From: Nitrospira lenta
GTDB taxonomy: Bacteria > Nitrospirota > Nitrospiria > Nitrospirales > Nitrospiraceae
DNA length: 64,000 bases
Assembly: GCF_900403705.1 (NCBI RefSeq)
Contig: NZ_OUNR01000001.1
Location: 496,001 to 560,000, forward strand
Direction: 5' to 3'
The position numbers and the translations under genes are program-made. The notes beneath the pieces are model-generated. The model made no database searches. It was not told the DNA's origin and saw nothing but the letters and a program-made list of their open reading frames with translations. Shown piece by piece: positions 21,151-29,792 of the stretch (positions within the stretch are counted from its first letter, which is position 1; each line of letters opens with the position of its first letter).

Positions 21151-21465
21151 TCAGGAGGCAACCTTCAACGCCTTTAATCCAGTCCATGGCTTGATCTTCG
21201 ACAACTTCGGCCCCAACGCCCGCTCGGCAACTTCCGTGTCATAGGCAGCCTGAGCCCGCAGCCAATAGCCATTCGACAAGCCAAAGAACCGACAGAGGCG
21301 CAAGTCAGTGTCGGCTGTAATAGAACGCTTGTCGCCCACAATGTCGCCGATCCGCTGCGCCAGAACCCCGACTTCCTTTGCCAGCCGATATTGACTGATC
21401 TCCATCGGCTTCAAGAATTCCTCCAACAACAGCTCGCCGGGAGTGACAGGTTTAAGCTTACGCAT
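21151..21465 (-). CDS. higA: HigA-family antitoxin-like helix-turn-helix protein
   Basis: A 104-residue protein of the HigA addiction-module type: VTPGELLLEEFLKPMEISQYRLAKEVGV, then the DNA-reading helix region and GLSNGYWLRAQAAYD. HigA normally sits just downstream of the HigB RNase. No HigB-like frame is present; the gene upstream encodes a DUF2283 protein instead. It may be an orphan antitoxin or a stand-alone repressor. Confidence 0.82.
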   Translation of the reverse strand: MRKLKPVTPGELLLEEFLKPMEISQYRLAKEVGVLAQRIGDIVGDKRSITADTDLRLCRFFGLSNGYWLRAQAAYDTEVAERALGPKLSKIKPWTGLKALKVAS

Positions 21466-22020: not shown

Positions 22021-22272
22021 CTATCTGTTGGAGTCGCCCGCCTGGCGGCTTATAATCCGAATCCGCCCCTCACGCTCACAATGCGAGAGGACCAGCACGC
22101 GACCCTCTGTCGATATCCCAATCGTAATTTCTCTTGGCTCGTCATCCGAATGGTCCGGATCGTCATACGTCAGGGCCGCTCCATCATGAAATACCGACGC
22201 GGCTTCCTCAAATGACACGCCGTGTTTCCGCTTATTGGCATGAGCCTTTCTAGGATCCCATTCATAAATCAC
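22021..22272 (-). CDS. brnT: BrnT-family toxin
   Basis: An 83-residue RelE-fold ribonuclease toxin. The family start YEWDPRKAHANKRKHGVSFEEAASVF and the end EGRIRIISRQA are both present. In known systems BrnT cleaves RNA and is neutralised by its downstream partner, which also represses the promoter. The start codon is GTG. A promoter with an overlapping palindrome lies 33-63 bases upstream. Confidence 0.85.
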   Translation of the reverse strand: MIYEWDPRKAHANKRKHGVSFEEAASVFHDGAALTYDDPDHSDDEPREITIGISTEGRVLVLSHCEREGRIRIISRQAGDSNR

Positions 22273-25237: not shown

Positions 25238-25597
25238 TTATGCGGCGACTGTTGTGAGGTAAGGCGTGATATTCTTCATGGCCCGATCGACATACTCTTC
25301 TTTTTCGCCAACGGGCGCCACATAGTGCAACGCAGAGCGCGCTGCCTCTTCGCCCTCGAATCGGGCGATGATCCATGCCGACAAGTACTGCGAAGCAAGA
25401 AAGTGAATACCGGTGTCAGGAACCAATGCCTGCCAAAATCCCCAACCGTCAGTCCGAACAATGGTTCCTGACACCTTTGTTTTTCTCGGATAGCTGGAAT
25501 CATTCAGATCACCGAGCGGGAACAGCCACTCCAGCGAGTCGTCTTCGGTTGCGATGAATCCGTCAAGACTTGTGGCTGTGTAGTACTGCGTTTTCAT
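25238..25597 (-). pseudogene. Dihydrofolate-reductase-like (RibD C-terminal) remnant broken by a REP-like insert
   Basis: The first 37 codons (MKTQYYTATSLDGFIA, then SLEWLFPLGDLNDSSYP) match the start of the small dihydrofolate-reductase/RibD-C family. The similarity ends where a 64-bp palindromic element enters. The frame stays open through the insert and reads on into unrelated codons (SQYLSAWIIARFEG to the end). The family is normally about 180-220 residues, so the reductase is destroyed. The downstream codons may belong to a second broken gene. Confidence 0.6.
25412..25475. repeat. REP-like palindromic element
   Basis: GGTGTCAGGAACCA at 25412-25425 and its exact reverse complement at 25462-25475 flank a 36-bp centre. 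Palindromes with a TGTCAGGAACC core are typical of REP/REPIN elements mobilised by RayT-type transposases in other bacteria. I saw no second copy in the window. It interrupts the reductase remnant. Confidence 0.6.
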
Positions 25598-25755
25598 GAT
25601 GTGAGTTTCGGCGCGCCATGAGGTCTGACCACCTTGATTCCCTCACCCAAGAAGATGCTGGCTCCTGCCCGGCGCTCCCCACCGGCAGAAATGTAGGATG
25701 GCCCCGTTTTTCTGTCTCTAGGATCTTGAATGCAAACAGACACCTTTTTCTTCGT

Positions 25756-26727
25756 CTACTTCGATATCTGCCAGATCGCGGCATTATTTCCGCAATCACC
25801 AGTGACAACGGCTCCTCCGTTTCCACCAAACGAAAATACACATTCGTTGGTGCCAGGACGACCATAAAGCCTGATTTTGTCTTGGCTTCTCAAGTAGCTG
25901 GCGTCGTTGAGCTTCACATAGCGACCGTCGTTTGTTGCAACCTGGGTCGTAAGCGCCCCGATTTGGCCTTTCGCTGATTCAATATCGCGGCCAATTGCGC
26001 TCGCCATGTCTTCGGGCAGTCGCTCGTCACGTGGCCAAAGAACGTTATAGTTTCCAAAATTCGTGGATACAACGATTGATGATTCCGGGTAGGTATTGAC
26101 CTTTTGCGCGTTCGAATCGGGTGTTCGAGTGCAGGTGAAATTCTGCGACTTTGAAATCACCACGTTCGTAGATTGGTTAAATGCAGCTTTCTTACCTGCA
26201 ATCTGCCCTGCGCATACTACAGGCCCGCTTACCGACACGCCGCTCAAGGTAATCTTTTGCTCGACTGCCGACTTTAGAAAGAACGCCGACGTGTCCCGAT
26301 TAACGATGTCATGGGTAATTGTTACGCCTTGGGTCTGCAAGCGGAGGCAGTCGGTGACTGTATCAAGTGCTTTGCTCGCAATCCGCTCTTCATACGAAAA
26401 CTTTCGTTCTTGCATAGCAGTAGTGCCTGCATAGCTCTTACAGAAATTTTTCATTGCCTCCTCGCTGTTGGAGGCGGATCCTGTGAACTTAATCGGTATG
26501 GCCTTAACGACTGCGTCGAGTCCTAAGCTACCACTCGAGGTCTTCGTATTGCCGCTTGCTTCACAATAACTATCGAAAACTGAATTGAGGTAGCTAGAGG
26601 AAGACGTAGAAATCGAGAATTCTTTAAGTGTCCTTGCTATATCCGTACACTGCAGTGCTTGCGGAAAGGCAATTGAAGGAAAACCGAGAACAATCAGTGT
26701 AAATAGTAGACGGCGATTGTCTTTCAT
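25756..26727 (-). CDS. Secreted protein of unknown function
   Basis: About 323 residues with a signal peptide (MKDNRRLLFTLIVLGFPSIA, then FPQA). The mature part is Ser/Thr/Asn-rich with several Cys (QCTDIAR; DSYCEAS; CKSYAG; DCLRLQ; ECVFSFGG; GDCGNN). It ends in a Gly-rich segment FSFGGNGGAVVTGDCG, reminiscent of a carbohydrate-binding module, but I do not recognise a family. A strong AAGGAGG lies before the ATG. Codon use looks more AT-rich than in flanking genes. It is downstream of the HEPN gene on the same strand. Confidence 0.75.
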   Translation of the reverse strand: MKDNRRLLFTLIVLGFPSIAFPQALQCTDIARTLKEFSISTSSSSYLNSVFDSYCEASGNTKTSSGSLGLDAVVKAIPIKFTGSASNSEEAMKNFCKSYAGTTAMQERKFSYEERIASKALDTVTDCLRLQTQGVTITHDIVNRDTSAFFLKSAVEQKITLSGVSVSGPVVCAGQIAGKKAAFNQSTNVVISKSQNFTCTRTPDSNAQKVNTYPESSIVVSTNFGNYNVLWPRDERLPEDMASAIGRDIESAKGQIGALTTQVATNDGRYVKLNDASYLRSQDKIRLYGRPGTNECVFSFGGNGGAVVTGDCGNNAAIWQISK

Positions 26728-26834
26728 GTGACTCCTCCTTTGGAGCGTTGGTTGAGGCAAGAAGATCGTACGCGAGAAGTAGCGTTTTCCCCACATCCAG
26801 AAGTTCAGAATGTCCCCGTTTCACATCCTCCGTC

Positions 26835-27419
26835 CTAAGCACTAATTCGGAACCAATCCTTGACCAGCAAATGAAAACGAAGAATTTCGTCGTCATTCAG
26901 TTCAACACTATGAGCTATGACATTCCGGACCATATTGAACTGAGTCAGAATTTGCTGAGCTGCCTTCTGGCTTCTTAGAGTGTCTGAAAAATCTACCCAA
27001 TTGGCATTTAGAATATCGATCAGCTCTCCAAAATTCGTGTAAGTCAACGGGTCATCAGATCGAATCGACATTGGCGTATCTTTTTCTTTCTTCTGTTTGT
27101 CTGCCACGCTTGTTCTAACGCCAACTGGGACTTTCTGCTCCCACCAATCCACGCCGTGCTTCTCGAGAAGTCTTCCCGAAATCAGCCGTCGAATGGTATT
27201 CTCAAGACTGTAGTAGAGGACGTAGAAGTCAGCCATTCGTCGCGCTGCCTGTCGAATGTCTGACTCAATAAGGTCACTATCCACTAAATTATCTTTCTTT
27301 AGCGTCTTCGCATGGCCAAGCTCAATGCCTCGCTTCTCCAGCGCAATTAGATCTGCCTCCAGCATCAAATTCCGCATCCCAAAGAGGCGCAGTCGATCAC
27401 TTCCCCCACTTTTAGCCAT
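26835..27419 (-). CDS. Swt1-type HEPN-domain protein, putative RNase
   Basis: A 194-residue helical protein with the HEPN catalytic signature Arg165-x4-His170 (MVRNVIAHS), preceded by a helix with YVLYYSLENTIRRLISGRLLEKHG. This pattern is typical of the Swt1 HEPN group, many of which are metal-independent RNases in toxin-antitoxin or defence loci. It overlaps the end of the DUF5343 gene by eight bases, so the two are probably co-translated. The surrounding DNA looks AT-rich, suggesting acquisition. Confidence 0.78.
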   Translation of the reverse strand: MAKSGGSDRLRLFGMRNLMLEADLIALEKRGIELGHAKTLKKDNLVDSDLIESDIRQAARRMADFYVLYYSLENTIRRLISGRLLEKHGVDWWEQKVPVGVRTSVADKQKKEKDTPMSIRSDDPLTYTNFGELIDILNANWVDFSDTLRSQKAAQQILTQFNMVRNVIAHSVELNDDEILRFHLLVKDWFRISA

Positions 27420-28107
27420 CGAGTAAATGCTCCTTCAGGCTTTTAAATATAGCATTGAAGACCTCAATCTCCGTCGTAGCAGGGAGGTTAAGGTTAATCG
27501 TGTACGAAATCCCCACCGACCCATGCAGTAACCGACGCTGAGCACCCTCGTCAGCACCTTTTTTCCCCTTTGCATCGTCGTCCGCTGCCAGAAGCTTTAT
27601 CGGAGCTGCTGTGGCCTTGAAATTAGCCAGCTTCGCCAATTCCATGAAAGTCGCAACAACAGCCGGAATAGTAGGATCGTCTTCAGCCGTACCAATAAGA
27701 GCCCGAAGTTTTGATTGCAGTTCATCCTTCTTCAGATTGTGCGCATACTCGTTCGCCTTGTATAGATCGGAATAGGCCAAGCGAATTTGCGCTGCCATTA
27801 CAGCCCCCTGCTGCTCGTCGTCTCTGTAGTTTTTGTAGGCCTCCGTTGGCACATTCGCTGCATCGATGAAACCAAGTTTCTTGAGAAGTGGAACCAGGGC
27901 TCTGTGGCTTGAAGATTTAAGTTCAAGGACTGTTTCCATGAAGTCTTGTGTGAACTTGGGGGGAACTGAGGCTTTACGAATCTCGGAGAATAGCTTTGGA
28001 ATAGAACCATACCCATTCACATAAGGCGGGTACTTAATGGCACCTTTCACCTTTTTATCGGTTTGTTCAGCCGTGGCATCTTCATTCTCATTCTTCTTCG
28101 CAGCCAT
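27412..28107 (-). CDS. DUF5343 protein
   Basis: A 231-residue soluble protein. KYPPYVNGYGSIPKLFSEIRKASVPPKFTQ followed by SSSHRALVPLLKKLGFID matches the DUF5343 domain, which has a winged-helix look. A charged middle leads to a strand-rich end (HGSVGISYTINLNLPATTEI). The domain occurs in accessory loci and has no defined activity that I know of. GGGGGG precedes the ATG. With the overlapping HEPN gene it resembles a two-component regulator/RNase pair. Confidence 0.75.
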   Translation of the reverse strand: MAAKKNENEDATAEQTDKKVKGAIKYPPYVNGYGSIPKLFSEIRKASVPPKFTQDFMETVLELKSSSHRALVPLLKKLGFIDAANVPTEAYKNYRDDEQQGAVMAAQIRLAYSDLYKANEYAHNLKKDELQSKLRALIGTAEDDPTIPAVVATFMELAKLANFKATAAPIKLLAADDDAKGKKGADEGAQRRLLHGSVGISYTINLNLPATTEIEVFNAIFKSLKEHLLDG

Positions 28108-28286
28108 AAATCCCCCCCTCTAGCGTGGTATCTAGCAATCACTCATGAAGGTCATTGATTAATTTATGCATCATCGCCTGCCTTTCAGAAAACTGTATAT
28201 GACCAGATACGACGTCAAAGAATATCCTTCCGAGATGACCCTTTATCACAATAAATTGACTGATCTGGCGTAACTTTGATTAATCG

Positions 28287-29087
28287 CTACGTATGGTTTT
28301 CGATGTCGGCCTTCCTTGCTACTTTCTTTGACACCAGCTCCATCTCGTAGATCCTTGCAACAAAATCGGCCGACAGCTTGATCTTTGATGAAAAACCACG
28401 CCCCTTTTGCTCGGGAGGGTAACCACGAACAAACTCAACCGCACCAACATGCTTTCCACGACGCTTCATAAGATCTATTGAAGGGATGCTATCGGCATCA
28501 CCGGAAACGACGACCGCCACATCGTAATTACTCTCAAGGGCAACCATATCGACAGCAAGTCGTGTATCCAGCCCTTTCTCTTCGCATGCATGCGAAAACA
28601 AATCTACCTTCCAATGGCCCACCTCAAGAATGTCAATAAGATCGGTGGAACTTTGAACACCATGATGAAACCGTTTCATGCCATCTAATGTCCGCTTCTT
28701 TCCTTCGTACCATGCTCGGAGTTCGTCAAAGCATAGCGACCATGCTTTTCTGGCTACAGCATCTTGGCCCTGACTTGATAACATCTTTCCTGCCATCGCC
28801 ATGTATCCAGCTTTGGCTTGCTTGCTCTCTTCGAATCGTTCTCGCAGATAAGCTTGCGCCTGCGCCTCATCTAAATTCCAGGAATCAATAGAGCCCACTT
28901 GGTACCAGTACACACGCTGTAGCAATGTGATCGTGCTCTGGCCCGCACCGACCGAGAAGCGCCATTGTTGTTCCGCTACTTTGAAAAGATAAGTAAAGAA
29001 GGTCTGATAATCATCAACCTCTATACCCATTCCCTTCAGCGATCCAAATAGATTCGACCCATCCACAAAAAACGCGAATCTAGCCAT
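28287..29087 (-). CDS. NYN/PIN-like nuclease (LabA/DUF88 type)
   Basis: A 266-residue protein. The NYN domain starts FAFFVDGSNLFG with metal-binding Asp9. The second acidic cluster is DTRLAVDMVALESNYDVAVV followed by SGDADSIPSIDLMKRRGKHV, the typical LabA/DUF88 arrangement. An inserted helical region (residues about 70-150) precedes GMKRFHHGVQSSTDLIDIL. NYN proteins are divalent-metal RNases, so two different potential RNases lie within 2.3 kb. A 180-bp gap separates it from the DUF5343 gene and holds no reading frame I would support. The ATG at MARF is preferred to a TTG four codons earlier. Confidence 0.8.
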   Translation of the reverse strand: MARFAFFVDGSNLFGSLKGMGIEVDDYQTFFTYLFKVAEQQWRFSVGAGQSTITLLQRVYWYQVGSIDSWNLDEAQAQAYLRERFEESKQAKAGYMAMAGKMLSSQGQDAVARKAWSLCFDELRAWYEGKKRTLDGMKRFHHGVQSSTDLIDILEVGHWKVDLFSHACEEKGLDTRLAVDMVALESNYDVAVVVSGDADSIPSIDLMKRRGKHVGAVEFVRGYPPEQKGRGFSSKIKLSADFVARIYEMELVSKKVARKADIENHT

Positions 29088-29792
29088 TGCGCCCCTCAAT
29101 TTTAGATGCTTCTACCTCGGCCATTCCCTGCAATATAACGCGGCAGTCTACTTCAAAGTCTATTAGGTATCCAATACCTCCATTCGGGGTATACCAGGAT
29201 GTTCAAACTGGTCGTCCCGCAAGTCCACGATATATCAATGCTCCCTCCAAGCTTGCTCGTTGCCCTCTCCTCTAGAACAACGCCCGCGCTAGTTCCCCTG
29301 CGCCCGTCGAGCGAGCACCTCACTCCTCTTCTCAACACCCACACCTTCTTCCCCAGGGAGCTGCCAGACCGTCCTTCACCGCGCGCATTGAGCGACCACC
29401 GTTTCATCGTGGGGGCTCAGCGAGCAAGAAGGATGGTCTGGCGGCTCCCCCTTCTTAGTCCGCACATACCGCGAGCAGGAGGATGACTAGCCTCCACCTC
29501 ATTTTTTTGCGGGGATAGCCCCGCATCCCCTGATGGAATTCATCTCCCCGCATCGCGTTCACTCCTCCCCCACTCTCTGAACCCCTGAATTTTCCTCACA
29601 TCTTTCTTAATTCCCTCGCACGTTCCCACCGGCACTCCGGTTGCTCAAGCACAGGACCGTCGGCGGGCGGCGCGGAGGGCCGGAAAGGGGGTGAGCAGGA
29701 ACGAGGCCGTCGCAAGTGCCGGATCGCCGCCGGATCAGCCGACGAGAGACACGACAACTTTCAACAATTGAACGTACGAGGAGGAAGCCATC
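29088..29792. other. 700-bp non-coding region with repeats
   Basis: No frame here looks coding. It begins after the NYN gene and ends at the ribosome-binding site of the OmpA-like gene (GAGGAGG). It holds an AGGATGTTCAAACTGG segment at about 29197, similar to the start of the 40.2-kb repeat, and a long inverted repeat at 29356-29449. It also holds a hairpin GCGGGG-atag-CCCCGC near 29511 whose T-run is on the wrong side for a terminator. It marks the boundary between the accessory block and the sortase region. Confidence 0.5.
29356..29449. repeat. MITE-like inverted repeat
   Basis: Arms at 29356-29376 and 29429-29449 are 21 bases each and complementary except at two positions (GGGAGCTGCCAGACC and GGTCTGGCGGCTCCC at the outer ends). 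The loop is 52 bases. It could be a small mobile element, a non-coding RNA or a protein-binding palindrome. Confidence 0.5.

Follow-up and report, generated by a model that had tools for sequence, protein, structure and literature searches.

A run of four genes of low GC content in Nitrospira lenta raises the question of which of the encoded proteins belong together and what they might do in concert. The genes occupy positions 25756-29087 of the window, by which we mean the entire 64,000-nucleotide stretch that was analyzed, and all four lie on the minus strand: a gene with an NYN domain (28287-29087; Pfam NYN, E 2.4e-8; ATG start, with an alternative TTG start possible at 29099), a DUF5343 gene (27412-28107; 231 aa; Pfam PF17278, 2e-46), a gene for a Swt1-type HEPN protein (26835-27419; 194 aa; Pfam PF18731, HEPN_Swt1, 9.8e-13), and a gene for a signal-peptide protein (25756-26727). 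The last was listed as an open reading frame from 26796, of which the ATG at 26727 is the likelier start, and Pfam, PADLOC, NCBIfam, and PHROGs gave no family for it. A sequence-only reading had proposed that the four genes constitute a new defense cassette with NYN and HEPN effectors. Its description of the locus was accurate with respect to the common strand, to the 8-bp overlap of the DUF5343 and HEPN genes (bases 27412-27419, minus strand, read directly from the sequence), and to base composition: GC across 25756-29087 is 0.476, lower than in any of the 108 other blocks of 3.3 kb in the window (minimum 0.546, mean 0.585, sd 0.022).

Only two of the four genes behave as a unit, namely DUF5343 and HEPN, which sit together as a conserved operon. 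When genome contigs were scanned using a DUF5343 alignment, 137 relatives came up; the best 80 of these, together with six viral contigs from IMG/VR that all carry the pair, make up a set of 86 loci. Among these, a Swt1-type HEPN gene lies directly downstream on the same strand in 84; the two exceptions (L089 and L142) end at a contig edge, and the pairing thus holds in 84 of 84 loci with room for it, bearing out the co-occurrence suggested by the sequence-only reading. Within the same set (best 80 of 137 plus six viral), the spacing is within 20 bp in 83 of 84 pairs, with overlap in 59; the most common value, −8 (20 of 84), is that of the window, and −4 occurs in 18. The records span 17 assigned phyla of bacteria and archaea, with Pseudomonadota the most frequent (39) and four of them archaeal. 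Given that the scan selected on the tail sequence described below, the pairing applies to tail-type DUF5343 proteins rather than to every DUF5343. A single DUF5343 was present per genome in all 44 genomes tested. Searches of phages with the window DUF5343 protein gave no match, and viral scans with HEPN, a Ymh-type DUF5343, and a DUF4145-like partner retrieved no relatives. Searching viral contigs for the tail pattern as DNA yielded five stretches, including one (L246) that encodes a DUF5343-like/DUF4145-like pair; a second tail pattern had no match there.

The genes surrounding the pair are far less constant. Immediate neighbors (148 of 1085 neighbor ORFs) include restriction, Drt5, Cas1, and PADLOC candidate proteins, reported here as raw presence with no enrichment claimed; the most common family matched 3 of these 148 proteins, and no neighbor family was seen in more than 7 of the 84 pair loci (best 80 of 137 plus six viral). 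Homologs of the window NYN and secreted proteins were absent (phmmer, E<0.01) from the 86 loci in this set, with flanks of up to 8 kb, and from the larger phylum loci. At one further DUF5343 locus (L207), an NYN-like gene lies ~0.9 kb away, and an NYN model built from this sequence and that of the window found, besides L207, one weak match in 135 loci at E<0.001. With no recurrence beside other pairs, the NYN gene, previously cast as a second effector, and the secreted protein, previously counted as part of the cassette, were rejected as module components and are regarded as neighbors only.

The setting of the pair is itself variable. The AT-rich cargo (25712-29298) is bounded by two junctions, at window positions 25711 and 29299, that are both found in congener G088. 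Sequence on the OmpA side is common to nine congener flanks, with a NUDIX gene on the opposite side in four, and the content between differs. Cargo was scanned for four of the nine flanks (G088, G254, G280, and G110). Between its junctions, G088 carries PARIS-like AriA/AriB ORFs (AriAB, 1e-49; L058:6087-7699, apparently split in two frames). Beside the OmpA flank, PADLOC retrieved PDC-S54 (7e-162) and PDC-S31 (2.5e-26) in G254, PDC-S45 (1.7e-114) in G280, and weak matches only in G110. The variable stretch of the window also holds a BrnT toxin gene (22021-22272; 2.7e-25) and an HTH gene (21151-21465). Given the AriAB ORFs, the PADLOC candidates, BrnT, and the presence of DUF5343 in only 5 of 77 congener genomes, we favor interpreting the site as a defense hotspot with turnover. 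At the edge of the cargo lies a dispersed repeat (29299-29454) with many copies in congener genomes. A short copy of a RibD_C-domain gene (25238-25597) diverges in sequence after its first third; the G088 version encodes 187 aa (L058:4011-4574).

RNases of the HEPN type act widely as effectors in prokaryotic conflicts, and the second protein of the pair has sequence features of one. It scores 48.8 bits against the HEPN_Swt1 profile (cut-off, 27.5), and the R-x4-H motif reported earlier is present as R165-N-V-I-A-H170 (codons at 26910-26927, minus strand). In an alignment of 87 HEPN proteins (from the best 80 of 137 plus six viral), R165 and H170 are retained in 86, the remaining sequence having a gap, and E73 and R77 are retained in all 87. 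The AlphaFold2 model (mean pLDDT 90) was most similar by VIA-align to PbAbiF with its ncRNA (8vz6; Z 9.3, rmsd 3.7, 134 aligned), followed by HepT, Csm6, and AbiA (each Z 5.3); the yeast Swt1 C-terminal domain gave Z 4.5. We take AbiF, HepT, Csm6, and AbiA to be HEPN proteins. Since chance alone can give helical bundles a Z as high as 13, the HEPN assignment rests on the Pfam match and the motif. Foldseek of the model against the PDB returned nothing at E≤0.001, and absence of a fold from the VIA list does not exclude it. Structure alignments used 79 of the 84 pairs. The protein is a predicted RNase effector that would cut RNA through R165 and H170.

The AlphaFold2 model of DUF5343 (mean pLDDT 84.8) comprises a confident head (residues 28-165; 27613-28026, minus strand), a disordered linker, and a C-terminal segment. 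Confidence within the head exceeds 90 up to residue 160 and is 84 for residues 161-170. The tail (residues 200-229; 27421-27510, minus strand) includes a predicted helix at residues 214-229, preceded by a segment that, read from its sequence, is a likely strand. This tail is the most conserved part of the protein and is near-invariant in 86 distinct sequences (from the best 80 of 137 plus six viral), with the consensus YTINLNLPATxDxxVFNAIFKSLKEHLL. Folded head, disordered linker, and tail together make up what, in the model, is an antitoxin-like layout. The three top VIA matches of DUF5343 were SspB (Z 5.8, rmsd 4.5), the BpuJI recognition domain (Z 5.0, rmsd 4.3), and SspB again (Z 4.8), the highest of these being within the range of common arrangements. 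SspB and the BpuJI recognition domain are presumably DNA-recognition folds with winged helices, and the weak resemblance of the head to tandem winged-helix restriction domains is suggestive only. Foldseek against the PDB and a search of a viral fold library returned nothing for DUF5343 at E≤0.001. Searches by sequence for solved relatives gave none that was meaningful.

Does the tail mark the HEPN association? Searches of the PF17278 family in seven groups, less selected than the contig scan, gave 59 loci; removal of 7 (the window and six chosen centers) and of 5 in which the profile found no DUF5343 ORF (L013, L014, L208, L209, and L223) left a table of 47. By a tail rule written after the data had been seen, and with partner models built partly from the same loci, a HEPN or HEPN-like gene lies directly downstream in 27 of 27 cases in which DUF5343 ends in the tail: Swt1 in 15, Ymh in 7, DUF4145-like in 3, and RNECAH in 2. 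By the same post-hoc rule, 19 of the 20 tail-less DUF5343 proteins in the table have no HEPN; the exception (L211) has a Swt1 HEPN and a DUF5343 tail that is out of frame. The 19 include TPR or HEAT-like fusions, an Acidobacteriota group, several rows beside an apparent secA, and one (L010) truncated by a contig end. In Acidobacteriota (L229, L230, and L233-L241), the DUF5343-like proteins carry a C-terminal end that is related yet distinct, they lack a HEPN neighbor, and several are beside an apparent secA; they are perhaps a housekeeping branch. In Bacteroidota (L217-L219), DUF5343 domains occur on proteins of 504-559 aa encoded directly after apparent response-regulator genes, and Pfam gives TPR matches for a related protein (L216, 376 aa).

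Pfam, which names partners independently of our models, identified Ymh in 5 of 5 Ymh-type partners tested; these also match PADLOC PD-Lambda-3_B and Aga_HEPN. On a Klebsiella plasmid (L244), a Ymh gene (TIGR02391) also lies directly ahead of genes for DUF1837 and DEAD/DEAH helicase proteins. For DUF4145, one of four partners was above the Pfam cut-off and three were below it. The DUF4145-like partners keep the His of R-x4-H and lack the Arg, making their activity doubtful. Neither of the two RNECAH partners tested had a HEPN match by Pfam; their assignment rests on the R-x4-H motif, and one has a sub-threshold match to PIN_4 (0.0026). Comparison of the four partner groups by hhalign revealed no significant similarity. 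Ymh, DUF4145, and Swt1 are listed as HEPN families in Anantharaman et al. 2013 (PMC3710099).

Trees of the DUF5343 heads, using about every fifth Swt1-type row, suggest how these partners were distributed. On a tree of 49 rows, partner labels change 6 times, compared with a mean of 19.6 for shuffled labels, and none of 200 shuffles was as low. Once the non-HEPN rows are dropped, together with L207 and L242, which are divergent, the number of changes falls to the minimum, 3. With L246 added and the non-HEPN rows out, the Swt1-linked heads group in a single clade (99/94). A single clade was rejected for the DUF4145-linked (AU p 4.4e-7) and Ymh-linked (3.9e-4) heads, both represented by few, long-branched rows, and the heads of L242 and L246 fall below the Pfam cut-off for DUF5343. 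These trees indicate that partners were mostly inherited with the head and exchanged a few times. As a tentative generalization, for which the odds are somewhat short of even, DUF5343 may be a plug-in receptor of prokaryotic immunity, in which one strand-helix plug docks at least four mutually dissimilar HEPN or HEPN-like families and the effectors are exchanged. If true, the plug would allow HEPN partners to be predicted from sequence. A link between one DUF5343 scaffold and multiple HEPN families seems not to have been described in the literature searched, which covers few subscription papers or preprints.

For the window, we consider it fairly probable that the pair is a two-gene PDC-M34 effector module in which DUF5343 acts as the infection sensor and its tail holds HEPN back until HEPN is freed and cuts RNA. 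DUF5343 would be made first, and its head would probably recognize nucleic acid or another infection cue. The strand-helix tail, at the end of a flexible linker, is proposed as the HEPN-docking element on the basis of its conservation and its tracking of a downstream HEPN gene; binding there would keep HEPN inactive. Upon infection, the trigger would be contact with the cue, which would alter or release the DUF5343-HEPN complex. HEPN, probably as a dimer, would then cut RNA through R165/H170, and the resulting toxicity would halt growth or phage production, conferring an anti-phage effect. The sequence-only reading had cast DUF5343 as a sensor or antitoxin for HEPN; this reading, with HEPN as the RNase, fits, and the four-gene cassette around it has been reduced to two genes.

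The same architecture could describe a plain type II toxin-antitoxin system that is self-maintaining, with DUF5343 as DNA-binding antitoxin and autorepressor, HEPN as toxin, and any anti-phage effect a by-product. Antitoxin-first order with overlap, the head-linker-tail layout, the weak winged-helix matches, and the nearby BrnT gene are all consistent with this explanation, which we nonetheless judge unlikely. Queries of four types retrieved no DUF5343 from 72,556 plasmid records, and the sole Swt1-HEPN plasmid match has no adjacent DUF5343, a distribution unusual for addiction modules. Autoregulatory palindromes upstream of the pair were also sought and set aside, being only slightly in excess (mean arm 6.06 vs 5.39 shuffled, n=80). 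More doubtful is a restriction-like sensor, whose DUF5343 head would read modified or foreign DNA in the manner of SspB or BpuJI and switch HEPN on instead of restraining it. The identity of the three top VIA matches fits such a role, but their Z values are low; for other systems, recognition of invading DNA by a wHTH coupled to a HEPN suicide effector is proposed in Anantharaman et al. 2013 (PMC3710099). A cassette of all four genes, with NYN serving as its second effector, is scarcely credible: the adjacency, shared strand, and similarly low GC of the genes and the NYN-like gene at L207 speak for it, against which stand gaps of 179 bp ahead of DUF5343 and 107 bp beyond HEPN and the recurrence of neither outer gene of the window at any other locus searched.

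The two-gene module can be set beside several known systems. Like HEPN-MNT (MntA-HepT), it has two genes, a HEPN toxin candidate with a HepT fold match (Z 5.3), and a small regulator, but here the regulator is DUF5343, for which Pfam gives only that domain and no nucleotidyltransferase match. AbiF (PbAbiF with ncRNA) is the best fold match of HEPN (Z 9.3 over 134 residues), but the window HEPN has a protein partner and no evident ncRNA. Control by an ncRNA as in AbiF was rejected: structure in the upstream sequence does not exceed that downstream (mean z −0.89 vs −0.70, n=80), and Rfam gave no match at the gathering score. Swt1-type HEPN domains also appear in a defense setting in the DUF499-HEPN ATPase of Hma/BREX-related systems (PMC3710099, PMC12839542); there HEPN is fused to a large ATPase. 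Nine HEPN_Swt1 matches in frames of ~1120 aa within the class are taken to be such ATPases. With type II toxin-antitoxin systems, the pair shares a regulator gene that comes first and is close to or overlaps the HEPN gene. HEPN similarity was noted in 6 of 21 systems by Vassallo et al. 2022 (PMC9519451).

The closest counterpart is PDC-M34, and the pair is accordingly not new, contrary to what had been proposed. In PADLOC-DB, DUF5343 matches PDC-M34A (2.7e-55 over residues 28-228) and HEPN matches PDC-M34B (5.1e-45), encoded adjoining M34A; with both proteins matching and encoded together, the window pair shows no difference from the family. These profile matches place it as a member of an already cataloged candidate family (PADLOC-DB 2.0). 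PADLOC candidates of this type reportedly came from guilt-by-embedding, and most of those in the core defensome still await validation (PMC12988326). We found no mention of DUF5343 or PDC-M34, and no published test of PDC-M34, in the literature searched, which covers few subscription papers or preprints. The PDC-M34A profile extends to DUF5343 proteins that are paired with something other than M34B. A short shared tail marking the partners of several HEPN families would make the control protein recognizable by a rule of sequence and would supply a defined peptide for docking tests. With the pair already a cataloged candidate, what merits following is the tail, along with the way a single DUF5343 scaffold has exchanged HEPN partners.
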